A stretch of DNA of 64,000 bases from Planctomycetota bacterium (GCA_015075375.1 JABTUM010000003.1:62001-126000); one strand, 5' to 3'; positions 16,412 to 27,158 are shown, counted from the stretch's first letter. Made by a program: numbers and translations. Notes: a model not told the origin generated them from the letters alone.

Positions 16412-18784
16412 TTAGCGCCGGGGCGGCGGCCGCGTTCCAGCGCCGCCGGGACCTCCACTTGTACCCCCTGGAGGCGGCGGGCGATTCCCGCCGGTGCCGG
16501 TCTGGCCGCCCGGAGGAGGATACGGTGCACCCGGAGGCGGTGGAGGTGGGGCAGGATACCCCGCGCTCCCGGTTGTCCCCTCCTGTTGCTGTGAAGGCGG
16601 ATACGGGCCTTGCGCGGTGGTGCCTTGAGCCGGCTGGCCCTGTGGCGGCGGATTAGGCTGCCCCTGCGCTGCGGGGCCGCTGGGACTTCCCGTCGGACTC
16701 CCCGAAGCCGTGGCACTGGTGGTGATCGCCGTCGTAGCCGGCGGCTTGGGCTTGGGCTCTTCTTCAGGCGGCAGCAGTTTGATCTGCTCCGTGGCCTTGA
16801 TCAATCCGTCCCGCGCGACCTGAATATTCGGTGCTTCAGGCCAAGCGGCGATTGCCGCTTCGAAGGCATTCTTCGCCTTTCGCGGATCATTCCGGCCCAG
16901 GAAGGTATTGCCGTCCCTAAGCTTACTGTTGAACTCGTACTTCTTGTCGTTCAACGCCACGCGTTCTTCGAGCGTCATTTCCCGCTCGACCGGTTCTTTA
17001 GGCTCGGCCGGTTCCGCCGGCGCGGCCTCCGTCTTAGCCGCAGGTTGACTCGTCACCGCATTGGTCTTGGCTTCCGCCGTCTGCTCCGCCGCCAGCATCG
17101 CTTGATGCGCTTCGCGCTTCGCTTCAATCCGTTCGGCGATCCGTTCGCGCGGCAGCTTCGGGCGTTCGGCTTCGAGCGCGGCCGGTTCCTGCGCAACCGG
17201 CGATTCCTTCTGCCCGCCGCGCAGCAACAGCCAGCCCGCGCCGCCCAGCAGCACGACGCCGCCGGCCAGCGCCACCAGCCCCATTGAGGCTCCCGTTTTC
17301 GACGGCGGGGCGCGGCGCGGTTCGGGGCGTCCTTTCGGCGATGCGCCCGCGCCCAACTGCGCCAGCGTGGGTCCGCCGGCAGGTCCCTGATTCGGCGTCG
17401 CTTGCGCGCCCGACCGGCGCAGGCCGCGAGGCGCCTGACCCGGCGCCGGCGTGAGCGGCAAGTCCGGCTGCGGATGCACCGGACGCGCACCCGAGGGACC
17501 GGCCATGAGCGTCGGCTCAAAGCCCGTCGCCGCCGAGACCGCGCCCGGCACAATCGTCGCCAAGCCTTCACGGCACGAGCGCAACGCCTTCAGCAGCGCC
17601 TGAGCATCGGGGTAGCGCTGGTGCGGATCCTTCGCCAGGCACTTCTCCATCAACGCCAGCGTCGAAGCAGACACGTCGGGCCGCAGGTTGCGAACCGGAT
17701 AATGGGCTTCCTGCGCCGTCGCCATCAGAATCTGCATCAACGTCGTCCCGCCGAACGGAGCTTGCCCCACCAGCAGCGCATACAGCGTGGCGCCCATACT
17801 GAAGATGTCCGAGGGCTTTCCGGCGGTCTTGGCATCCATGCTCTGTTCGGGCGACATGTAGCCCGGAGTTCCCATGCAGGCTTGCTGGCCCGTCAGCGTG
17901 CTCCCGCCTGTCTGGTCGCTCGACGCCAAGCCCAGATCGGAGAGTTTCGCCGCTTTGATATCGGGCTGGCCATCTTCTTTGCGCAGCGGGATCAGGATGT
18001 TGTCAGGCTTCACGTCACGGTGGATCACGTTCTCCGCATGCGCCGCGGCCAAGCCTTCCGTCGCCGCGAGCACCAGGTCCAGCGCCATACTTTCGGCCAG
18101 ACCCACCGCGCCTTGCGCCATGCACTCCTTCAAGTATCCGCCCGCCGACTTCGCGCGCACGTACTCCATCACCAGATAGGTCAGTTCCGCGTCTTCGTTT
18201 ACGTCCGTGACCATGACCAGATGCGGCGAACGAATCTTCGCCGCCAGCCGAGCTTCGCGGAAAAAGCGCTGAATCATCAACGGGTCGCGCTGCGCCAAAT
18301 GGAACGGCAGCACTTTGACAGCGACTTCGCATTCCAGCCGCGGATGAATCCCGTAATAGACGGCGCCCATCCCGCCTTGCCCCAGCTTAGAAAGCAGGGG
18401 GATGCCGCCCAAGCTCGGCACCGGTTTGTTCTGGTACACCACGCGCGGCGCGTTGGAAATCAGCGGGTCGCGCGTTAAATCCTGAACCTCGGGGCCCGAA
18501 GTGCTCAACGCCACCGCGTCCGCGCCGCTGGCGGGAACTCCGGCGATCGTCATCTGCGCGCCGCGCGGCAATTCCACCTTTGTTGAAGGCGCATGCGGTT
18601 CCCCGCGTGCAACCGTCGGCGGCAGCGGCGCTTCGGGCCGATTCGTGACCGTGGGAGGCAACGGCGGAGGCGGAACCGCCGGCCGAGTCGGCGGCTGCGG
18701 ACCTCCCGATCCGGGCACTATCGTGGGCGGCAGCCAAGCCGTCGGCAGTTGCGGACCCTTGGGACGGGTCGGTTCGTCACTCAT
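16412..18784 (-). CDS. Transmembrane Hanks-type Ser/Thr protein kinase
   Basis: 790 residues: a Pro-rich N-terminus (~1-110), a kinase domain (~125-405) with GQGGMGAVY, HRDVKPDN and DLG in place of DFG, then a Pro/Ala-rich stretch, one membrane helix near residue 500 (GLVALAGGVVLLGGAGWLLL), an Ala/Glu/Lys coiled or TPR-like segment, and a Pro/Gly-rich extracytoplasmic tail. The catalytic residues look intact, with the APE-like MSPEQ. ATG 18784 is preceded by GAGGAG at 8 nt, better than the GTG at 18793. This planctomycete-style kinase could phosphorylate FHA partners in this region, such as the 21.6-kb activator; that link is inference. Confidence 0.88.
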   Translation of the reverse strand: MSDEPTRPKGPQLPTAWLPPTIVPGSGGPQPPTRPAVPPPPLPPTVTNRPEAPLPPTVARGEPHAPSTKVELPRGAQMTIAGVPASGADAVALSTSGPEVQDLTRDPLISNAPRVVYQNKPVPSLGGIPLLSKLGQGGMGAVYYGIHPRLECEVAVKVLPFHLAQRDPLMIQRFFREARLAAKIRSPHLVMVTDVNEDAELTYLVMEYVRAKSAGGYLKECMAQGAVGLAESMALDLVLAATEGLAAAHAENVIHRDVKPDNILIPLRKEDGQPDIKAAKLSDLGLASSDQTGGSTLTGQQACMGTPGYMSPEQSMDAKTAGKPSDIFSMGATLYALLVGQAPFGGTTLMQILMATAQEAHYPVRNLRPDVSASTLALMEKCLAKDPHQRYPDAQALLKALRSCREGLATIVPGAVSAATGFEPTLMAGPSGARPVHPQPDLPLTPAPGQAPRGLRRSGAQATPNQGPAGGPTLAQLGAGASPKGRPEPRRAPPSKTGASMGLVALAGGVVLLGGAGWLLLRGGQKESPVAQEPAALEAERPKLPRERIAERIEAKREAHQAMLAAEQTAEAKTNAVTSQPAAKTEAAPAEPAEPKEPVEREMTLEERVALNDKKYEFNSKLRDGNTFLGRNDPRKAKNAFEAAIAAWPEAPNIQVARDGLIKATEQIKLLPPEEEPKPKPPATTAITTSATASGSPTGSPSGPAAQGQPNPPPQGQPAQGTTAQGPYPPSQQQEGTTGSAGYPAPPPPPPGAPYPPPGGQTGTGGNRPPPPGGTSGGPGGAGTRPPPRR

Positions 18785-19436
18785 GCCCCGCACTCCTCAA
18801 AGCTATAGCCATACTGCTGTAAGACGACCATACTCAATGATTCCTGCACCATATGCAATAGTCAGGCCCAGGGCAGCTGAAATTAGGAACCTCAGACCCT
18901 TAATTCCTGCGCATGTGCAGCTCAAAGTTGAATGGCGCATGGTTACCCACGCGCCCTTTCCTCCTCATCTTTTAATAGGGGGCCGGTCGAAGAATCCCAC
19001 GCTGTCCTCGACTAGCCACTTGGAGTTTCCCAACTCGATCGCGTGCACCGTCGTCGGGCCCAGCGAGACCAGACTCGTACATTCGAAATGGGTCGCGTTC
19101 TTTAGCGCGTGGAAAGACTTCGGCGCAGGATGCCTTTCTCGGCGTTGCCGCATCCAACGCATACACACCGCTGTCGAAAGAGCCCACAGTCCAAGCATGA
19201 CCTTGTGCAAAATGGACCGACGCCATCGAGCGCGGGCAGGTTTCGGACAACCCACCGATTTTCGGTCGCTTGCGCGGGCTGGTGTCAACCCCGCCGGATT
19301 GCGGCTTACCACTGACACGCCAACCGCTTAGCAGAACGTTTTGCGCTTGGCCCCGACCTTGCCTCGAACCTCTTCGACAGTGCTCGATGCTTGGCAGCAC
19401 CTTTTGAAGTGGGACCCGAGTAAAGGAGATGCCCAA
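18785..19436. other. 652-bp gene-poor region
   Basis: No intact gene is convincing here. It contains the likely kinase promoter area at its left end, a frameshifted relic on the minus strand (18965-19226) and the leader of the DUF6600 gene at the right, ending in AAAGGAG (19422-19428). Base composition in the first 200 bp is more AT-rich than the flanking genes. Confidence 0.5.
18965..19226 (-). pseudogene. Frameshifted fragment, beta-propeller-like
   Basis: Reading the minus strand, one frame gives GHAWTVGSFDSGVYALDAAT (19200-19140 area), which looks like a WD40/PQQ-type repeat. The next frame then gives a plausible C-terminus, NATHFECTSLVSLG... ending IKR and a stop at 18965. The two pieces read as one protein if a single base was lost or gained near 19115-19131. 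No ribosome binding site or full-length frame exists. I take it as the 3' end of a decayed gene; chance similarity cannot be excluded. Confidence 0.4.
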
Positions 19437-21104
19437 ATGCATAGATCAACCCCTTGGGCTTGGCCCTTGTTGCTGATCGTCGGCGCGGGAAGCGCGTTCG
19501 CTTCCGAAGGCGTCGACGACATCGTGAAACTCGAGGAGGCCGGCGTCAGCGACGACGTGCAGCTCGCATACGTCCAGAACTCCTCCATTGCCTACGATCC
19601 AACCTCCGAAGAGATCGAAAGGCTCGAACAGGCCGGCGTTTCGGCCTCGGTGATCGTCGCCATGATCGAACGCGGCGAGAAGGCGGACGCGCGAGCGGCC
19701 GCCGGAAGCCAAGGCGAACTCCGAGCCGCGGCTTCCAGTCCGGAAGAAACGGTCATGACCCGTGGCGCCGAACCGCAGCCGCAGGTTCCGCCGCCGGTTT
19801 ACAATGACGATGTCTCCGTATCCGCCGCCGTCTCGTACGTACCGCCGGGCGGCGAGATGGACGTCAGCTTCTTTTACGGCTCGCTAGCGCCGTACGGGAG
19901 CTGGCATCGTATCGACGGCTACGGCTATGCGTGGCGGCCCAACGTCACAATCACCGTCACCGACTGGCAGCCTTACTGCAACGACGGCCATTGGGTCTGG
20001 ACCGACCATGGCTGGTACTGGGAAAGCAGTTACCCGTGGGGCTGGGCTGCGTTCCATTACGGCCGCTGGCACCATCACCATCACCACGGCTGGGTCTGGA
20101 TCCCGGGTACGACCTGGGGCCCGGCGTGGGTCGACTGGCGGCATTCCGACGAATACTACGGCTGGGCGCCACTCCCGCCGGAAGCACACTTCCGCGCCGG
20201 GGTGGGAATCACCTTCGGCAGCGGCGACGTCCGCGTCGGGCTCGGTTTCGGTTTGGCTGCCGACGCCTACACCTTCGTGCCGGTCGGAGCCTTCCTGGAA
20301 CGCGACTACCACCGCCATCGCGTGCCGCGGCGAAACGTAACCAACGTCTACAACCGCACTACGGTGGTGAACAACACCTATGTCTACAACGACAACCGCG
20401 TGATCAATCGCGGCATCCCCGTCGATAACGTGCGCCGCAGAACGCGGGCCAACATCGAGACCGTGCAAGTCACCAGCATGAGCGCTTCCGAAGGCCAGGC
20501 CCTGACGCGGGCAGAACGGCGCGAGCAGAATCGCATCGAAGTTTTCAGGCCGGCGGTCCGCGAAGGCGCCCGGCAGGAACCGGCCGCCGCCGCGGCTACG
20601 TACCGTACCCGTGCCGCCGAACGGCGTGAAGCCCGAGCGGCTCAACGCCTGGAAGCCTCGAAGGAACGCCGCGAGCGTATTCAGGATCGCCGCGAAGACG
20701 CCCGCGAGCGCCAGCAAGAAGCGGCGCAAGACCGCCGTGAGAATGCCGCCGAGCGCCGCGAGGATGCGTCCGAACGGCGTCAGGAAGCCGCGCAGGAACG
20801 CCGCGAAGATGCGGCACAGCGCGAAAGCGCGCAACAAGAACGCCTGGAACAGCTCAAGCGCCAACGCGAAGAAAAGCGCGAGGGCGTCCAGGAGCGCCGC
20901 GAGGACGCGTCCGAGCGGCGTCAGGAAGCCACGCAAGAACGCCGGCAGGAGGCCGCACGGCGTCAGAGTGAACGCCAAGGGGCGCAGCAGCAGCGCCAGC
21001 AGCAGGCCGAACGGCGCCGCCAGGAAGCCGCCCAAAAAGCGCAAGAACGGGAAGCAGACGGCATACAAGGCAAGCCGGTCCAGAAGAAAGGCCGACGGCG
21101 CTAA
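19437..21104 (+). CDS. Secreted DUF6600-type protein with long Arg/Glu/Ala helix
   Basis: 555 residues with a clear signal peptide (WPLLLIVGAGSAFAS). Residues ~25-80 hold two copies of a short helical unit (VDDIVKLEEAGVSDDV and EEIERLEQAGVSASVIVAMI). A Trp/Tyr/His-rich DUF6600-like domain (~135-290) follows, with YGSWHRIDGYGYAWRP and a natural run of six His. The last ~170 residues are Arg/Glu/Gln/Ala-rich repeats (ERREDASERRQEAAQ type), probably a long charged helix. AAAGGAG sits 8 nt before ATG 19437. It is followed by a small gene whose product shares the N-terminal unit. The biochemical role is unknown; the DUF6600 label is from memory of its aromatic motif. Confidence 0.75.
   Translation: MHRSTPWAWPLLLIVGAGSAFASEGVDDIVKLEEAGVSDDVQLAYVQNSSIAYDPTSEEIERLEQAGVSASVIVAMIERGEKADARAAAGSQGELRAAASSPEETVMTRGAEPQPQVPPPVYNDDVSVSAAVSYVPPGGEMDVSFFYGSLAPYGSWHRIDGYGYAWRPNVTITVTDWQPYCNDGHWVWTDHGWYWESSYPWGWAAFHYGRWHHHHHHGWVWIPGTTWGPAWVDWRHSDEYYGWAPLPPEAHFRAGVGITFGSGDVRVGLGFGLAADAYTFVPVGAFLERDYHRHRVPRRNVTNVYNRTTVVNNTYVYNDNRVINRGIPVDNVRRRTRANIETVQVTSMSASEGQALTRAERREQNRIEVFRPAVREGARQEPAAAAATYRTRAAERREARAAQRLEASKERRERIQDRREDARERQQEAAQDRRENAAERREDASERRQEAAQERREDAAQRESAQQERLEQLKRQREEKREGVQERREDASERRQEATQERRQEAARRQSERQGAQQQRQQQAERRRQEAAQKAQEREADGIQGKPVQKKGRRR
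20759..20945 (+). repeat. Internal direct repeat coding the charged helix
   Basis: Two ~44-bp stretches beginning near 20759 and 20899 (sharing cgtccga-cggcgtcaggaag) are nearly identical and 140 bp apart, each coding a DASERRQEA-type unit. They point to expansion of the helix by duplication inside the gene. Confidence 0.6.
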
Positions 21105-21167: not shown

Positions 21168-21488
21168 ATGAAACGCGGCATGCAAGCGCTCCTGCTCGCC
21201 GGAGCGATCCTGATGGCGGGCCTCACCTTCTTAGTATGGACCAGCCAGGCCGCCGACCCGCAAGCCGTAGCCACCATGGCACAGAAGGGGGCAAGCGAAA
21301 ACGAGATGCTGGAAGCCGTCCTGAAAACCCCCGGCACCTTTGCACTCAGCGCCGACGACATCATCCGTCTCAAACAGGCCGAGGTGCCTGACACGGTGGT
21401 GATCGCGATGCTCGAGAAGAAGGACCGCTCCGAATCCGATGCCGCGCCGGGGGCCGGAGCGGAGGTATCCGAACAGCCGGCGCCGTAA
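21168..21488 (+). CDS. Small exported or membrane-anchored protein sharing the DUF6600 partner's helical module
   Basis: 106 residues: an N-terminal hydrophobic segment (MQALLLAGAILMAGLTFLVW), then ADPQAVATMAQKGASENEML and ADDIIRLKQAEVPDTVVIAM. This is the same repeated helical unit seen near the N-terminus of the preceding protein (D-I-x-x-L-x-x-A-x-V-x-x-x-V-I-x-A-M). AAGGAG at 21154-21159 is well placed before ATG 21168. The shared module and spacing suggest the two products act in one complex or respond to the same partner. No known function. Confidence 0.75.
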   Translation: MKRGMQALLLAGAILMAGLTFLVWTSQAADPQAVATMAQKGASENEMLEAVLKTPGTFALSADDIIRLKQAEVPDTVVIAMLEKKDRSESDAAPGAGAEVSEQPAP

Positions 21489-21621
21489 CCTATCGAAACG
21501 AGGCGCGAGAGCCTTATCTCTGCAAGGCGCCTTCCCGAGCGCTTCCGCTCACCCCGGAAGCGCCGTACTATTTTCCGGCCGCCGTTCGCTAGCGTTTAAT
21601 CCCGTTCGGCATAGGATGCGT

Positions 21622-23553
21622 ATGCCGCCATTGCGGATTGTAATGGCCGGGGCCGCTGCTTATATGTTTGCACTCCATATACTCAAGGACGGTATCAGCA
21701 CGTCCTACGCGCTTAAGGACGGCAACCGCTGGAGGATCGGCCGCCATCCTCCGTGCGAAATTCTGGTTGCCGATAAGCGTATCTCCGGCGAGCACGCCGA
21801 GATCCTGCTCGAAAACGGGTCCTTGCGCCTGCGCCGAACCAAAGGGCGCATGGCCATCAGCCTTGACGGACAAGTCGTCGACGACGCCGAACTCGCCGAC
21901 GGCTCCAGCTTCGACATCGGCGAAACCAATTTCACCGTCGTGCGCACCCACGAGGGGATGAACCTCTTCGACGCCCGCTCCATGCTGAAAGGATACGGAA
22001 CGCCGGCCCCCGCCGCACCGGCCGCCGCGGCCGGCGGGCTCACCGAAGAAGAGACCCACCAACTCGCGTCGCGCAGCAGCGCGATGATCGACTCGCCCTC
22101 GCGCCTGCTCGCCCAGCTCGTCTCGCTCCTGCACCGCGCCGAAGACCTGGAGAGCCTCACGCGCATGGTCCTCGAGATGGCCTGCCAGCGCTTGGGCGCT
22201 CAGCGCGGACTGATCGCGCGCTTCGAAGACGCGGATAACCTCGTCGTCGTCGGCACCCAGGGCATGGACGCCCAGGCCCCCATCGCCGAACTGATCTCCA
22301 CCTCCGTGCTCAAACAGATCGTCGACGGGCGACGGGCCGTTTCCATCGGCCGCAAGAGCGACGCCGATTCCAAGATCATGCTCAGCAAGAGCATCGCGAA
22401 GAACAGGATCACCGCCATCGCCTGCACCCCCGTATTCGACAGCGGCGGCGAATTGCGCCATCTGCTCTACGTCGACAACCAGGAACGCGAGTCCGAGTTC
22501 TCTGTGCGCGACACCGAACTGCTCGTTTGGCTCGGGCAGACCTACAGTCTGCTTTACGAGAACATCGAGATGGGCCGGCGCCTGCAGATGGAGGTCGCCG
22601 AACTCAAGCGCTCCGCCGTACGCGACGCCGAAGTGATTGCCGAATCGCCGCCCATGGTCCTGCTGCTCGAACGCGTCCGCAAGGCCGCCGCCAGCGAGGC
22701 CAACGTCCTCATCCTCGGCGAAAGCGGTTCCGGCAAGGAACACATCGCCCGTCTCATCCACAAGCAGTCGCCGCGCGAGGCCAAACCCGTCGTTGCCCGG
22801 AATTGCGCCGCGATCCCCGAGAATCTCTTCGAATCCGAGATGTTCGGGCACAAGAAAGGCTCGTTCTCCGGCGCAAACACCGACCGCAGCGGCGCCTTCC
22901 TGGAAGCCGACGGCGGCACCCTTTTCCTCGACGAGATCGGCGACCTCGATTACGCGCTCCAGACCAAACTGCTCCGAGCGATTCAGGAAAAGAAGATCCG
23001 GCCCGTCGGCAGCGACACTGAAATTCCCGTCAGCGTTCGGCTCGTCACCGCCACCAACAAGGATCTCCGCGAGGCGTGCAAGGAGAAGACCTTCCGCGAG
23101 GACCTCTTCTTCCGCATCTCCACCGTGATCCTCGACGTCCCCCCGCTGCGCGAACGCCCCGAAGACATCCGCGCGCTGGCGCGCCATTTCATGCAGACGC
23201 TCGGCGGCGGCCGGCGTACGCTCTCACCCGCGGCTGAAGCCAAATTGCTCTCCTATGCCTGGCCCGGAAACGTCCGCGAACTGCTGGGCATCCTCGAACA
23301 GGCCATCATTTTTTCCGCCGGCACCGAGATCACTCCCGACGATCTCAGCCTCCCCGTCTCCGAAGCCGATACCATTCCGCTCGGGGACGATTCCCTCGCC
23401 GAAGTCGAACGCCGTCACATCCTCCAGGTGCTCCAGCGCTGTCACGGTAACAAAACCGAAGCCGCGCGCATGTTGGGCATCGCCCGAAGCACCCTCGTCC
23501 TTAAACTCAAAGCGTATGACGGCTCCTCCGCCATGAAACGCGCCAACGGCTGA
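21622..23553 (+). CDS. FHA-GAF-AAA+ sigma54-type transcription activator
   Basis: 643 residues. FHA domain at ~15-105 with canonical RIGRHPPC and ISGEHAEI; GAF-like domain at ~165-315; AAA+ domain with Walker A GESGSGKEH (~364-372), Walker B GGTLFLDEIGDL (~430) and the arginine-finger region REDLFFRI; Fis-type HTH at ~591-631 (GNKTEAARMLGIARSTLVLK). The sigma54-contact loop reads GSFSGA instead of GAFTGA. ATG 21622 has AGGA 5 nt upstream; ATG 21616 and 21664 are alternatives. The FHA head suggests control by Thr phosphorylation, for example by a kinase in this window (inference). The downstream gap carries a -24/-12-like element and a dyad, so the FAS1 genes are the likely targets. Confidence 0.85.
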   Translation: MPPLRIVMAGAAAYMFALHILKDGISTSYALKDGNRWRIGRHPPCEILVADKRISGEHAEILLENGSLRLRRTKGRMAISLDGQVVDDAELADGSSFDIGETNFTVVRTHEGMNLFDARSMLKGYGTPAPAAPAAAAGGLTEEETHQLASRSSAMIDSPSRLLAQLVSLLHRAEDLESLTRMVLEMACQRLGAQRGLIARFEDADNLVVVGTQGMDAQAPIAELISTSVLKQIVDGRRAVSIGRKSDADSKIMLSKSIAKNRITAIACTPVFDSGGELRHLLYVDNQERESEFSVRDTELLVWLGQTYSLLYENIEMGRRLQMEVAELKRSAVRDAEVIAESPPMVLLLERVRKAAASEANVLILGESGSGKEHIARLIHKQSPREAKPVVARNCAAIPENLFESEMFGHKKGSFSGANTDRSGAFLEADGGTLFLDEIGDLDYALQTKLLRAIQEKKIRPVGSDTEIPVSVRLVTATNKDLREACKEKTFREDLFFRISTVILDVPPLRERPEDIRALARHFMQTLGGGRRTLSPAAEAKLLSYAWPGNVRELLGILEQAIIFSAGTEITPDDLSLPVSEADTIPLGDDSLAEVERRHILQVLQRCHGNKTEAARMLGIARSTLVLKLKAYDGSSAMKRANG

Positions 23554-23567
23554 ATCTCGTCGCCCCC

Positions 23568-23580
23568 TCCGATTATCGGA
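23568..23580. promoter_or_regulatory. Candidate activator-binding dyad
   Basis: TCCGAT-T-ATCGGA is a perfect 6-1-6 inverted repeat lying ~107 bp upstream of the -24 element, within the usual distance for enhancer sites of sigma54 activators. Assignment to the adjacent activator is inference from position. Confidence 0.45.
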
Positions 23581-23679
23581 CGCCGGACACTTTTCCGTAC
23601 CGCTTCCCCGATTCTTCGTCGTTCGCGCATCTCCTTGCGCTTCTTTCCATTGTGGTTTGATCGCCGAGGAACGGCCGGT

Positions 23680-23695
23680 TGGCACCGCGCTCGCT
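23680..23695 (+). promoter_or_regulatory. Candidate sigma54 (-24/-12) promoter for FAS1 genes
   Basis: TGGCACC-GCGC-TCGCT matches the consensus TGGCACG-N4-TTGCW with the invariant GG and GC exactly 10 bp apart; mismatches are one base in each half. It lies ~165 nt upstream of ATG 23859 and directly follows a sigma54-type activator gene. Confidence 0.5.
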
Positions 23696-23858
23696 TGGTG
23701 AACTACCGCCTGTATCGCCAACGCCGTAATAGTTCGTATCCGAACGGCATGGCGAAGGCGCGCGGAGCATGGCGCTTATGCCAAGCCAGGCGCTGGATGT
23801 ATCCAGTCGGCCGAGCGCGCGCCTTCGACTTATTTGAAACTCGAACGGAGGACTTGAC

Positions 23859-24530
23859 ATGAAGATCGCCATCGTTGTCCTGACCGTACTCCTCGTCGCC
23901 GGCGGGATCTGGACCATGCGCGCACAGGAAGGGCAGTCCCAGCCGCCCGCCGAACCCGCCGCTCAGCCCGACCGGTCCATGCTGGAGATGCTCCAGAAAG
24001 ACGGGCACTACAAGATTCTCCTCGCCGCGCTTAACGGCACCGAACTGGAAAAAACGCTCGCCGGCAAAGGGCGCTACACCTTCTTTGCGCCCCGCGACGA
24101 AGCCTTCGAACGCGTCCCCGATCTGAGCAAACTGCTGGACGACGCGCCGCGCCTCCAGGCCGTGCTCAACCGCCACCTGCTCGACGGGCTGGCGCTCGAA
24201 ACCAAGGCGCTGCGCGATCTGCGCAGGCTCACCCCCAAGCAGGGCGAAGAACTGGAAGTCAGCGGCGGTAAGGAAGGGAAGCCCATCGAGATCAATGACG
24301 CCAAGATCCTGGCCCCCGACGGGAAGGCCAGCAACGGGATCCTTCACGGCATCGACCACGTGCTGATGAAGAACAACGACTCCATGCTCCGTGAAGCCGG
24401 CGCCGCCGTCGAGCGCGGCATCAAGAAGGGCGTCGAGGACGTCAAGAATGCCTTCAAGACCGACGAACAGGAGAAGGAAGCACCGGCCGCGGACGAAAAG
24501 ACCGCTCCGGCGGAACAGCCCGCCGAATAG
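23859..24530 (+). CDS. Secreted fasciclin (FAS1) domain protein
   Basis: 223 residues: an N-terminal signal or anchor (AIVVLTVLLVAGGIW), a FAS1 domain (~45-165) with YTFFAPRDEAFERVP and the closing ASNGILHGIDHVLM, then a charged helical C-terminus rich in Glu/Lys/Ala. FAS1 domains mediate adhesion or matrix binding. GGAGG precedes the ATG. The next gene encodes a second FAS1 protein, so this is a tandem pair, probably transcribed from the -24/-12 element upstream. Confidence 0.88.
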   Translation: MKIAIVVLTVLLVAGGIWTMRAQEGQSQPPAEPAAQPDRSMLEMLQKDGHYKILLAALNGTELEKTLAGKGRYTFFAPRDEAFERVPDLSKLLDDAPRLQAVLNRHLLDGLALETKALRDLRRLTPKQGEELEVSGGKEGKPIEINDAKILAPDGKASNGILHGIDHVLMKNNDSMLREAGAAVERGIKKGVEDVKNAFKTDEQEKEAPAADEKTAPAEQPAE

Positions 24531-24577
24531 CGCAGCTTGAAAGCCCGCCACCCACCCCCCGGAGTGGTGGCCGGACG

Positions 24578-24613
24578 GCTCCGGACCGCGTCGCCCACTA
24601 CGCGGTCCGGAGC
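24578..24613 (+). promoter_or_regulatory. Perfect 13-bp stem-loop between the FAS1 genes
   Basis: gctccggaccgcg (24578-24590) and cgcggtccggagc (24601-24613) pair perfectly around a 10-nt loop. It sits between the two FAS1 genes, 37 nt before the AAGGAG of the second. There is no T-run, so an mRNA-processing or stability element is favoured over a terminator. Confidence 0.6.
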
Positions 24614-24662
24614 GTCCGATTCGCGATCCGAGCCACGGACGACGGAATCAAGGAGAATGGAC

Positions 24663-25265
24663 ATGAGCCGCATGATGCTGCACGAGATCCTCAATCTCTG
24701 CGACGGCCGCCCGGCCAAGAACGGTTGGAACCCTTCCGAATCGGCCACCCGCGCCGGGAATTTGGTCGAAGTCCTCCGCGCCGGTGGACGCTTCCGGCTC
24801 TTCGAGATCGCCCTGCGCGAGACCGAACTCGAGGCCCGCTTGCGCGAAGCCGGACCCTACACCGTCTTCGCGCCCACCGACCGTGCCTTCCAGCGTTTCC
24901 CCAACTTGGCCGAACTGCTCTGCGACGCGCAGGCCCTGCGCGAGGTCGTCAGCCGGCACATCGTCTGGGGCTATTTCGATACGCAGGCGCTCAAGGCCAT
25001 TCCGCTCGTCGCGCCCATCCGCGGAGCGGCGCTGCGGCTCGATGGTGTTCGCGTGGACGGCACGCGCATCGCCGCCCCTGATCTCAAGGCCGCCAACGGC
25101 ATCGTCCACGGTCTCGACCGCGTGCTGACGCCGCAAAGCGTCCCCGCGTGGGAAATAACCCGCGATCGCGTCTCTGCCGCCGTACGCAACGGCGCGCTCG
25201 CTATGACCCAACGGCTGCGGGTCGGTGTCGAACGCCTCGAAGGGGCGCTCCAGGGACACCGGTAG
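24663..25265 (+). CDS. FAS1 domain protein lacking a signal peptide
   Basis: 200 residues covering one FAS1 domain: YTVFAPTDRAFQRFPNLAEL and AANGIVHGLDRVLTP are the classic H1/H2-type boxes. Unlike its upstream paralogue it has no hydrophobic N-terminus, so it is probably cytoplasmic or uses another route. AAGGAG (24650-24655) is 7 nt before ATG 24663, which rules out the longer frame. Both FAS1 proteins end in a similar amphipathic helix (RDRVSAAVRNGALAMTQRL here). Role unknown. Confidence 0.83.
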   Translation: MSRMMLHEILNLCDGRPAKNGWNPSESATRAGNLVEVLRAGGRFRLFEIALRETELEARLREAGPYTVFAPTDRAFQRFPNLAELLCDAQALREVVSRHIVWGYFDTQALKAIPLVAPIRGAALRLDGVRVDGTRIAAPDLKAANGIVHGLDRVLTPQSVPAWEITRDRVSAAVRNGALAMTQRLRVGVERLEGALQGHR

Positions 25266-25449: not shown

Positions 25450-25929
25450 ATGAAGGCAATGCAACGCAAGGTGGATGCCCGGGAGTTGGCGGCGCGGCTG
25501 GAACGCTTCGACGAGGCGTGCCGTCAGGCAGGCTTGAAGCTGACGCATCAGCGGACGGAAGTTTTTCGCGCGGTGGCCAGTGCGGATGGGCATCCGGACA
25601 CGGACGAAATTTACCGCCGCGTGCGCCGGCGGCTTCCGGCCATCTCGCTGGACACGATATATCGGACCTTGTGGACCCTGAAAGACCTGGGCCTGATCGC
25701 GACGCTGGGCACGCCCAGCGAGCGCGTTCGCTTCGACGCGAACTCCGTTCCGCATCATCATTTCGAATGCACGATCTGCGGCGCGACGCACGACTTATGC
25801 GATCCCGAGTTGGACGGCCTTACGCGCCGGAAGTCGGTCCGCGCGCTGGGCAAAGCGGCTTCTTGCCATGTCGAACTGCGCGGGACGTGCGCCGCGTGTC
25901 TGAAGTCTCCGCGAAAAAAGCCCCGCTAA
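25450..25929 (+). CDS. Fur-family metalloregulator, PerR-like
   Basis: 159 residues with winged-helix DNA-binding and dimerisation domains. All five regulatory metal ligands of PerR align: His in GHPDTDEIY, Asp in RFDAN, two His in VPHHHFEC, Asp in THDLCDP. Both structural zinc CxxC pairs are present (CTIC and CAAC). GGAG lies 7 nt before ATG 25450. The next gene is a cytochrome c peroxidase preceded by a PerR-like box, so a peroxide-sensing repressor is the best reading. Fur or Zur function cannot be excluded from sequence alone. Confidence 0.85.
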   Translation: MKAMQRKVDARELAARLERFDEACRQAGLKLTHQRTEVFRAVASADGHPDTDEIYRRVRRRLPAISLDTIYRTLWTLKDLGLIATLGTPSERVRFDANSVPHHHFECTICGATHDLCDPELDGLTRRKSVRALGKAASCHVELRGTCAACLKSPRKKPR

Positions 25930-25942
25930 ATCCACTTACGCG

Positions 25943-25971
25943 TTGACATTCAAATAAGAATGATTACTAAT
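25943..25971 (+). promoter_or_regulatory. Promoter with overlapping PerR/Fur-type box
   Basis: TTGACA (25943-25948, perfect -35) and TACTAA or ACTAAT (from 25965/25966) are spaced 16-17 bp. The 7-1-7 dyad TAAGAAT-G-ATTACTA (25955-25969, 5 of 7 pairs) lies across the spacer and -10. It sits 40-55 nt before the peroxidase start. This arrangement is typical of repression by a PerR/Fur-family protein encoded next door. Confidence 0.65.
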
Positions 25972-26009
25972 TAGAGCCGTACTGCCATGCGGCTCTTCGG
26001 AGGGTGGTC

Positions 26010-27158
26010 ATGAAAGGCGTCGTTTTAATGCTGGCCGGATTACTCGTGGGCGTTGCCATAGGCGCTCTTGCCTTTTCCTTTGCCTCAAAAAAAGCCTTAC
26101 CGGATGCGTCCCCATCGCCTGCTGCGGCGCCGATGGCATCGGAGCAGCAGGTTGCGAAGTCCGGTCCCGCCGAAAAGCCGGCGGAGGTCGACGAGAGCAA
26201 GTGGAAAGAGCTTCCAGGCTTCATCGGCCCGTTGCGACCGGTTAAGGCGCCGGCCGATAATCCGACGACGGACGAGAAGATCGAACTGGGCCGGATGCTG
26301 TACTTCGATCCGCGGCTTTCGGGGAACGGCGCGCTCTCCTGCGCGAGCTGTCACAATCCGGGACTGGGCTGGTCGGACGGATTAGCCAAGGGGATCGGGT
26401 TCCAGCACGGCGAACTTCCGCGCAGCAGCCCGACGGTGCTGAATGCGGCGTACTACAAGTCGCAATTCTGGGACGGCCGCGAACCGACCCTGGAGATGCA
26501 GGCCAAGGGCCCGATGACCGCCGCGAAGGAGATGAACAGCACGGCCGAGAAGGTCACCGCGGTGGTGAATTCGATCCCGAAGTATAAAGAGATGCTGACG
26601 AAGATTTACGGCGAAGCGAATTTCGAGAGCGTGGCTAAGGCCATCGCCGCATTCGAGCGGATCGTGGTGGACCAGGACAGCCCGTTCGACCGGTACGTAC
26701 GCGGGGACGAGAACGCCATTGGTGAATCGGCCAAGCGCGGTTTGGATATCTTCACCGTTAAGGGCAAGTGCACCTCATGCCACAATGGGCCGAACTTCTC
26801 GGATGACAAGTTCCACAATATCGGCGTGGGCGACGCCGACCGCGGTCGGATCGAGATCACCAAGAAGGACGAAGACCTCAAAGCATTCCGAACGCCTACG
26901 TTGCGCAATATCGCGTTGACGGCGCCCTACATGCACGACGGTTCCCAGAAAACGCTTCGGGAGACCATCGAGCACTACGAGCGCATCCCGAAGGAAAAGG
27001 AAAAGCATCCGAATCTTTCGGCGTTGATGCTCGACTTCACGCTCACGGAACAGGAGAAGCAGGATCTCGAAGCATTCCTGCATACGCTTACTGGCGACAA
27101 GCGCGATCCGCGCATCAACGTGATTCCCGATCTGCCTCCGGTCGCACCAGCTAAATAG
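26010..27158 (+). CDS. Dihaem cytochrome c peroxidase
   Basis: 382 residues with an N-terminal membrane anchor or signal (VVLMLAGLLVGVAIGALAF), an Ala/Pro linker, and two c-type haem sites: CASCH (residues 111-115) and CTSCH (254-258), the normal arrangement of bacterial MauG/CcpA-type peroxidases. The conserved DPRLSGNGALSCASCHNP and FRTPTLRN...YMHDG segments are present. It reduces H2O2 in the periplasm with electrons from small redox proteins. ATG 26010 has GGAGGG 5 nt upstream. Regulated by the PerR-like box; the cupredoxin-like lipoprotein 49 nt downstream could be its electron partner (inference). Confidence 0.93.
   Translation: MKGVVLMLAGLLVGVAIGALAFSFASKKALPDASPSPAAAPMASEQQVAKSGPAEKPAEVDESKWKELPGFIGPLRPVKAPADNPTTDEKIELGRMLYFDPRLSGNGALSCASCHNPGLGWSDGLAKGIGFQHGELPRSSPTVLNAAYYKSQFWDGREPTLEMQAKGPMTAAKEMNSTAEKVTAVVNSIPKYKEMLTKIYGEANFESVAKAIAAFERIVVDQDSPFDRYVRGDENAIGESAKRGLDIFTVKGKCTSCHNGPNFSDDKFHNIGVGDADRGRIEITKKDEDLKAFRTPTLRNIALTAPYMHDGSQKTLRETIEHYERIPKEKEKHPNLSALMLDFTLTEQEKQDLEAFLHTLTGDKRDPRINVIPDLPPVAPAK

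Follow-up and report, generated by a model that had tools for sequence, protein, structure and literature searches.

Introduction

To our knowledge, Planctomycetota have many Ser/Thr kinases and enhancer-binding proteins (EBPs) and few known regulons. EBPs that carry an FHA domain are reportedly present in Myxococcus xanthus, in work ascribed to Jelsbak, Givskov and Kaiser in 2005 and cited in PMC12288465. As a general rule, the upstream activating sequence (UAS) lies about 100 bp upstream of the -24/-12 promoter, and in Desulfovibrio vulgaris EBP-adjacent sigma54 regulons have been reconstructed by comparative genomics (PMC4641369). A sigma54-dependent promoter has also been proposed for a thioredoxin gene of Rhodopirellula baltica (PMC2754498). 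In a limited literature search, we found fasciclin and sigma 54 together only in an Azospirillum genome paper, once each. Here we describe a predicted sigma54 circuit in a 64,000-nucleotide stretch of a Planctomycetota bacterium (hereafter the window), which lies on the 995-kb contig C3 of a 7.24-Mb genome in 8 contigs, and in which an activator gene is followed by two FAS1 genes that an earlier, sequence-only reading had proposed as its targets.

A predicted sigma54 circuit with a shared enhancer motif

The elements found, their spacing, their conservation, the gene linkage and the presence of RpoN make it highly probable that an FHA-GAF activator and RpoN drive the promoters of FAS1a-FAS1b and of a DUF6600 unit through a shared UAS motif. 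In this circuit, the activator (21664-23553) would bind a near-palindromic UAS (consensus CCCHCCGAWWWTCRNACG) through its Fis-type helix-turn-helix (HTH), at a distance of 83-91 or 107-109 bp ahead of -24/-12 promoters recognised by RpoN-RNA polymerase, and DNA looping together with ATP hydrolysis by the activator would open two window promoters. The first (UAS 23568-23580, -24/-12 at 23680-23695) would serve FAS1a-FAS1b and the second (UAS 19255-19265, -24/-12 at 19347-19363) DUF6600 and a small exported protein, while elsewhere in the family the same UAS may serve TerB-like, PLDc_N and VPAK/IPAK-repeat secreted proteins. The FHA domain, the GAF domain or both would sense the switching signal, which perhaps comes from a kinase encoded at 16412-18793. 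Both the sigma54 dependence of transcription and the role of the activator as the UAS binder are what we infer from these elements.

The activator gene lies on the plus strand, and its product contains FHA, GAF, Sigma54_activat (E = 2.8e-65), AAA lid and C-terminal Fis-type HTH_8 (E = 8.2e-16) domains by Pfam, in agreement with the FHA and GAF sigma54-type activator of the sequence-only reading. The AAA+ domain, for which the closest structures are ZraR (1ojl) and NtrC1 (4l4u), shows the Walker A motif GESGSGKE, the LFLDEIGD motif and the FREDLF arginine-finger region. All coordinates given earlier are correct except the activator start: it had been placed at 21622, but the ATG at 21664, in the same reading frame, is probably the start because close relatives align there. 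The genome has a single rpoN copy with an intact RpoN box (ARRTVAKYRE).

The predicted enhancer, TCCGATTATCGGA (23568-23580, centre 23574), lies 15 bp past the activator stop codon and is a dyad with perfect 6-1-6 arms, present to the base as previously noted. The predicted -24/-12 promoter on the plus strand, TGGCACCGCGCTCGCT (23680-23695), is supported by conservation and by a site model of UAS and promoter; it reads TGGCACC-N4-TCGCT as had been reported, with GG at 23681-82 and GC at 23693-94 separated by 10 bp, and its first G stands 107 bp from the UAS centre. The two genes downstream, both on the plus strand, are indeed Fasciclin genes by Pfam: FAS1a (23859-24530) begins with a segment resembling a signal peptide or anchor, and FAS1b (24663-25265) has no visible signal peptide, all signal peptides having been judged by eye.

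The FAS1 pair therefore stands as a predicted target, but the circuit appears larger than first proposed, since a second pair of sites in the window had been overlooked. A UAS predicted with the site model, CCGATTTTCGG (19255-19265, centre 19260), lies 89 bp from a predicted plus-strand -24/-12 promoter, TTGGCCCCGACCTTGCC (19347-19363), upstream of a gene for a DUF6600 protein (19437-21104, plus strand, Pfam) with a signal-peptide-like N terminus, which we predict to be a regulon member. The unit also includes a gene for a small protein, predicted to be exported (21168-21488, plus strand), with homologues behind DUF6600 in both relatives considered next.

Conservation and statistics of the sites

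In a same-genus relative (G001), the FAS1 locus has the same order of activator, dyad CCGATAATCGGACG, -24/-12 element TTGGCATGTGGTTCGCC, FAS1a and FAS1b, and the distance from the dyad centre to the first G of GG is 107 bp, exactly as in the window. In a relative from another genus of the family (G002), the FAS1 pair is found behind DUF6600 and the small gene, with UAS TCCGAAAATCGAACG and promoter TTGGCATTCCGCTCGCC kept 87 bp apart, and the GG-N10-GC element upstream of FAS1a is kept in all three genomes. The sequence-only reading had named lack of conservation of the dyad and the -24/-12 element in relatives as one finding that would refute it; both are conserved in G001 and G002. Its enhancer-dependent sigma54 circuit is well supported by the presence of RpoN, the layout and 107-bp spacing kept in G001 and the elements kept in G002. 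Across four genomes, including a further family relative (G003), the distances from UAS to promoter are 83-91 or 107-109 bp.

These comparisons also bear on the nature of the dyad, which by its position just past the activator stop codon might be taken for the transcription terminator of that gene. The one-base spacer and the absence of a T-run are at odds with a terminator, the right arms in G002 and G003 are non-complementary while the left half and the distance to the -24/-12 element are kept, and the motif recurs ahead of DUF6600, a place with no activator stop. On the arm loss, the missing T-run and the DUF6600 copy we rejected the terminator, which we consider exceedingly improbable.

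The case for the sites rests on conservation because the single elements occur at chance frequency. The window contains 26 perfect 6-1-6 dyads, so a single dyad is unremarkable, and TGGCACN5TYGCW is not enriched in the 7.24-Mb genome (6 matches versus 14 for the reversed control). The exact 13-bp dyad TCCGATTATCGGA occurs once in the genome, with no TCCGAT-n-ATCGGA elsewhere in it, and the regulon becomes visible only with a degenerate UAS. Such frequencies of dyads and strict promoters are what would be expected if both elements had arisen by chance and a housekeeping-type sigma factor transcribed the FAS1 genes. Against this, the pairing of the two elements and the distance between them are conserved in four genomes far above shuffles, and no sigma70-type promoter was found in the region by a scan that may not suit this phylum; we judge a chance origin very unlikely.

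The first site model was trained on sites chosen by eye and by pattern, some of them related by descent. For each leave-one-genome-out score the model was trained without the genome being scored, and ten dinucleotide shuffles of 64 kb served as controls. The window pairs reached 40.1 and 28.7 bits, whereas no other position in the window exceeded 20.5 and no shuffle 21.0, and the FAS1 sites of G001 (35.1 bits versus 19.7) and G002 (34.4 bits versus 21.5) were similarly above their best shuffles. In a complete scan of contig C3, with column-permuted models as a second control, the window pairs rank 1 and 2, with 46.8 and 38.9 bits. A gapped-pattern search of seven family genomes gave 14 matches, several of them probably due to chance, versus 0 for the reversed pattern. 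We set aside as chance three hits in the source genome (L179, L185 and L188), which were at or below shuffle level or missed by the site model.

Members of the regulon

The regulon motif consists of the consensus UAS followed at either of the two spacings by TTGGCAY-N5-TYGC. Upstream of DUF6600, it is found at 89 bp in the window, 91 bp in G002 and 87 bp in G001, where the gene is divergent. In G002, a pair of sites past the activator stop precedes a TerB-like gene (107 bp), and another, which the site-model scan scores at 33.3 bits with a spacing of 83 bp, lies ahead of a PLDc_N open reading frame (ORF) and a secreted protein rich in repeats. In the source genome, a pair at C3:324055 with two UAS copies 19 bp apart precedes a homologous repeat protein (107 bp). 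G003 has a pair past the activator (109 bp), another ahead of an alpha/beta-hydrolase gene and beside an orphan ORF with the same HTH (108 bp), and a further one behind the orphan HTH in the site model (109 bp).

Genes that are scattered in the source genome and in G002 are clustered in G001, and where they stand apart most of them are preceded by a separate UAS-promoter pair. The order in G001 is repeat-small-DUF6600 <-> activator-FAS1a-FAS1b-TerB, so that the orthologue of the repeat protein (74%) shares the cluster of the activator, behind DUF6600 and the small gene. DUF6600 and TerB also have paralogues in other parts of the family, and these have no UAS.

Judged by eye, the N terminus resembles a signal peptide in FAS1a, DUF6600, the small protein and the repeat protein but not in FAS1b and the TerB-like protein. 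We therefore predict a small sigma54 regulon whose products are mostly exported, and it appears mostly envelope-directed because the UAS also seems to serve TerB-like, PLDc_N and repeat secreted proteins. The "adhesion-type" targets of the sequence-only reading fit less well, given FAS1b without a visible signal peptide and a regulon that adds DUF6600, TerB-like, PLDc_N and repeat proteins; envelope maintenance or stress would suit the gene set better than adhesion.

Candidates in genome G004 were excluded: for the CCGATAATCGGACG sites (L063, L065) a convincing promoter nearby was not found, and an activator fragment lying at the edge of a contig carries another HTH and lacks the UAS. The orphan ORF of G003 (L178, 2237-2596, minus strand) encodes 119 amino acids with only the HTH_8 of the activator family, has pairs of UAS and promoter on both sides, and appears to be a duplicated and shortened copy of the activator of that genome.

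Which protein binds the UAS

The activator 21664-23553 is favoured as the UAS binder because the UAS lies directly past its stop codon in several genomes, because the UAS is also found beside the orphan copy of its HTH, and because this UAS is absent from paralogues that have a different recognition helix. Another EBP of the genome could instead bind the UAS while the adjacent activator acts elsewhere: there are 25 sigma54-activator domain matches in the source genome to choose from, and the G002 FAS1 and DUF6600 loci have the UAS with no activator beside them. This is nevertheless unlikely given that in the window, G002 and G003 the UAS comes directly after the activator stop, that in G003 it also accompanies the same HTH as an orphan, and that paralogues whose recognition helix reads STLNLKLQ or STLVVKLK lack it past their stop.

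Several observations weigh against the proposed circuit. With no activator adjacent to the FAS1 locus of G002, another regulator could act there. The activator has the loop GSFSGA instead of GAFTGA, which its G001 orthologue has. Some sites are linked by common descent or by duplication and do not count as independent evidence, and distances in the shorter class vary over 8 bp, which leaves helical phasing suggestive only. The DUF6600 site of G001 is at noise level in the leave-one-genome-out test (19.2 versus 19.7) and is not significant alone. Rank 3 on contig C3, the repeat-protein site of the source genome, scores 23.7 bits, within the range of the permuted models (up to 24.3), and is supported solely by which gene it precedes.

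Signal input

Within the proposed circuit, and in line with the Ser/Thr phosphorylation suggested by the sequence-only reading, the activator may be controlled through its FHA domain by the product of the gene at 16412-18793 on the minus strand, a transmembrane Ser/Thr protein kinase, rather than by ligand binding to GAF. The gene, which encodes a candidate upstream kinase, is divergent from the DUF6600 unit and has homologues next to the activator in G002 (48%) and next to a paralogue of it in G006 (54%). The FHA domain is related to GarA (E about 1e-5) and keeps the GR and S-x-x-H residues, with the pThr-contacting R and S present, and FHA-type EBPs are reportedly known in Myxococcus. On the other hand, the Asn of the SxNG loop is replaced by Met in the window protein (TKGRMAI) and kept in G001, G002 and G003, no kinase homologue was found in the roughly 36 kb surrounding the activator of G001, and the GAF domain offers an alternative sensor. 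Control by the kinase is thus possible, and we propose it only tentatively.

Equally open to doubt is a wider model, in which a chain from Ser/Thr kinase through FHA and activator to envelope proteins (FAS1, DUF6600, TerB-like, PLDc_N, VPAK-repeat) might form an envelope-stress regulon undescribed in Planctomycetota, with paralogues gaining targets via their own dyad and promoter past the stop.

Paralogous activators and neighbouring features

Where paralogues of the FHA-GAF activator have another HTH (STLNLKLQ or STLKLKLQ), the motif directly past the stop codon differs as well. In G006 (L058, 8075-8093, reverse-complement orientation) it is a perfect dyad, CTGGCCGAAGATCGGCCAG, and in G002 (L055, after 8926) it consists of GGCCAG copies; at both loci a GG-N10-GC element follows about 100-113 bp onward, before related genes of similar sequence. 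This suggests that activator paralogues use the same plan with new specificity. At another G002 locus (L056, 8639-9760, reverse-complement orientation) an activator paralogue is followed by what by eye looks like a radical-SAM gene of the HpnH type, with a kinase-like gene upstream.

A terminator-like hairpin (21539-21563, plus strand), of a hit class at chance frequency, lies between the DUF6600 unit and the activator. The 150-nt leader of FAS1a contains a 37-codon upstream ORF (23748-23862), the TGA of which overlaps the FAS1a ATG, and at the equivalent position G002 has a 92-aa ORF that is weakly HTH_31-like (L031). Directly past the FAS1 unit (25450-27158) lie a Fur-family regulator gene and, after it, a MauG/cytochrome c peroxidase gene, and no UAS was found in that region. 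Elsewhere in the source genome, three strict -24/-12 matches fall within 19 kb (C1:3140863-3159888), with two activator-domain genes about 7-14 kb onward, possibly another sigma54 locus.

Discussion

With enhancer sequence, promoter, spacing and target list all defined, the proposed circuit is specific and testable. It places FAS1 and DUF6600 genes, whose roles are unknown, in a regulatory context, and it offers a way to test Ser/Thr kinase input into bacterial FHA-type activators. The type of system is already known; new here are the UAS sequence and the target set. Searches for related loci outside the family returned mostly activators alike in the AAA+ part only.

Like the FHA-containing EBPs of Myxococcus xanthus, the window activator combines FHA, an AAA+ sigma54 activator domain and a Fis HTH, with a proposed link to Ser/Thr kinases. 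It differs from them in its phylum, Planctomycetota, its extra GAF domain and its defined UAS, and in its predicted targets, FAS1, DUF6600, TerB-like and PLDc_N, with no developmental role seen. With NtrC/ZraR/PspF-type proteins it shares the AAA+ domain and a UAS about 100 bp upstream, but its input is FHA-GAF rather than a receiver domain and its loop is GSFSGA. GarA and other bacterial FHA proteins have in common with it the FHA fold, by sequence, and the kept GR and S-x-x-H, whereas here the SxNG loop is replaced and the domain is fused to a transcription activator. Finally, as in the Desulfovibrio vulgaris regulons (PMC4641369), the activator gene stands beside its predicted target operon and a palindromic UAS is predicted by conservation, while the phylum, the UAS sequence and the target genes are different.

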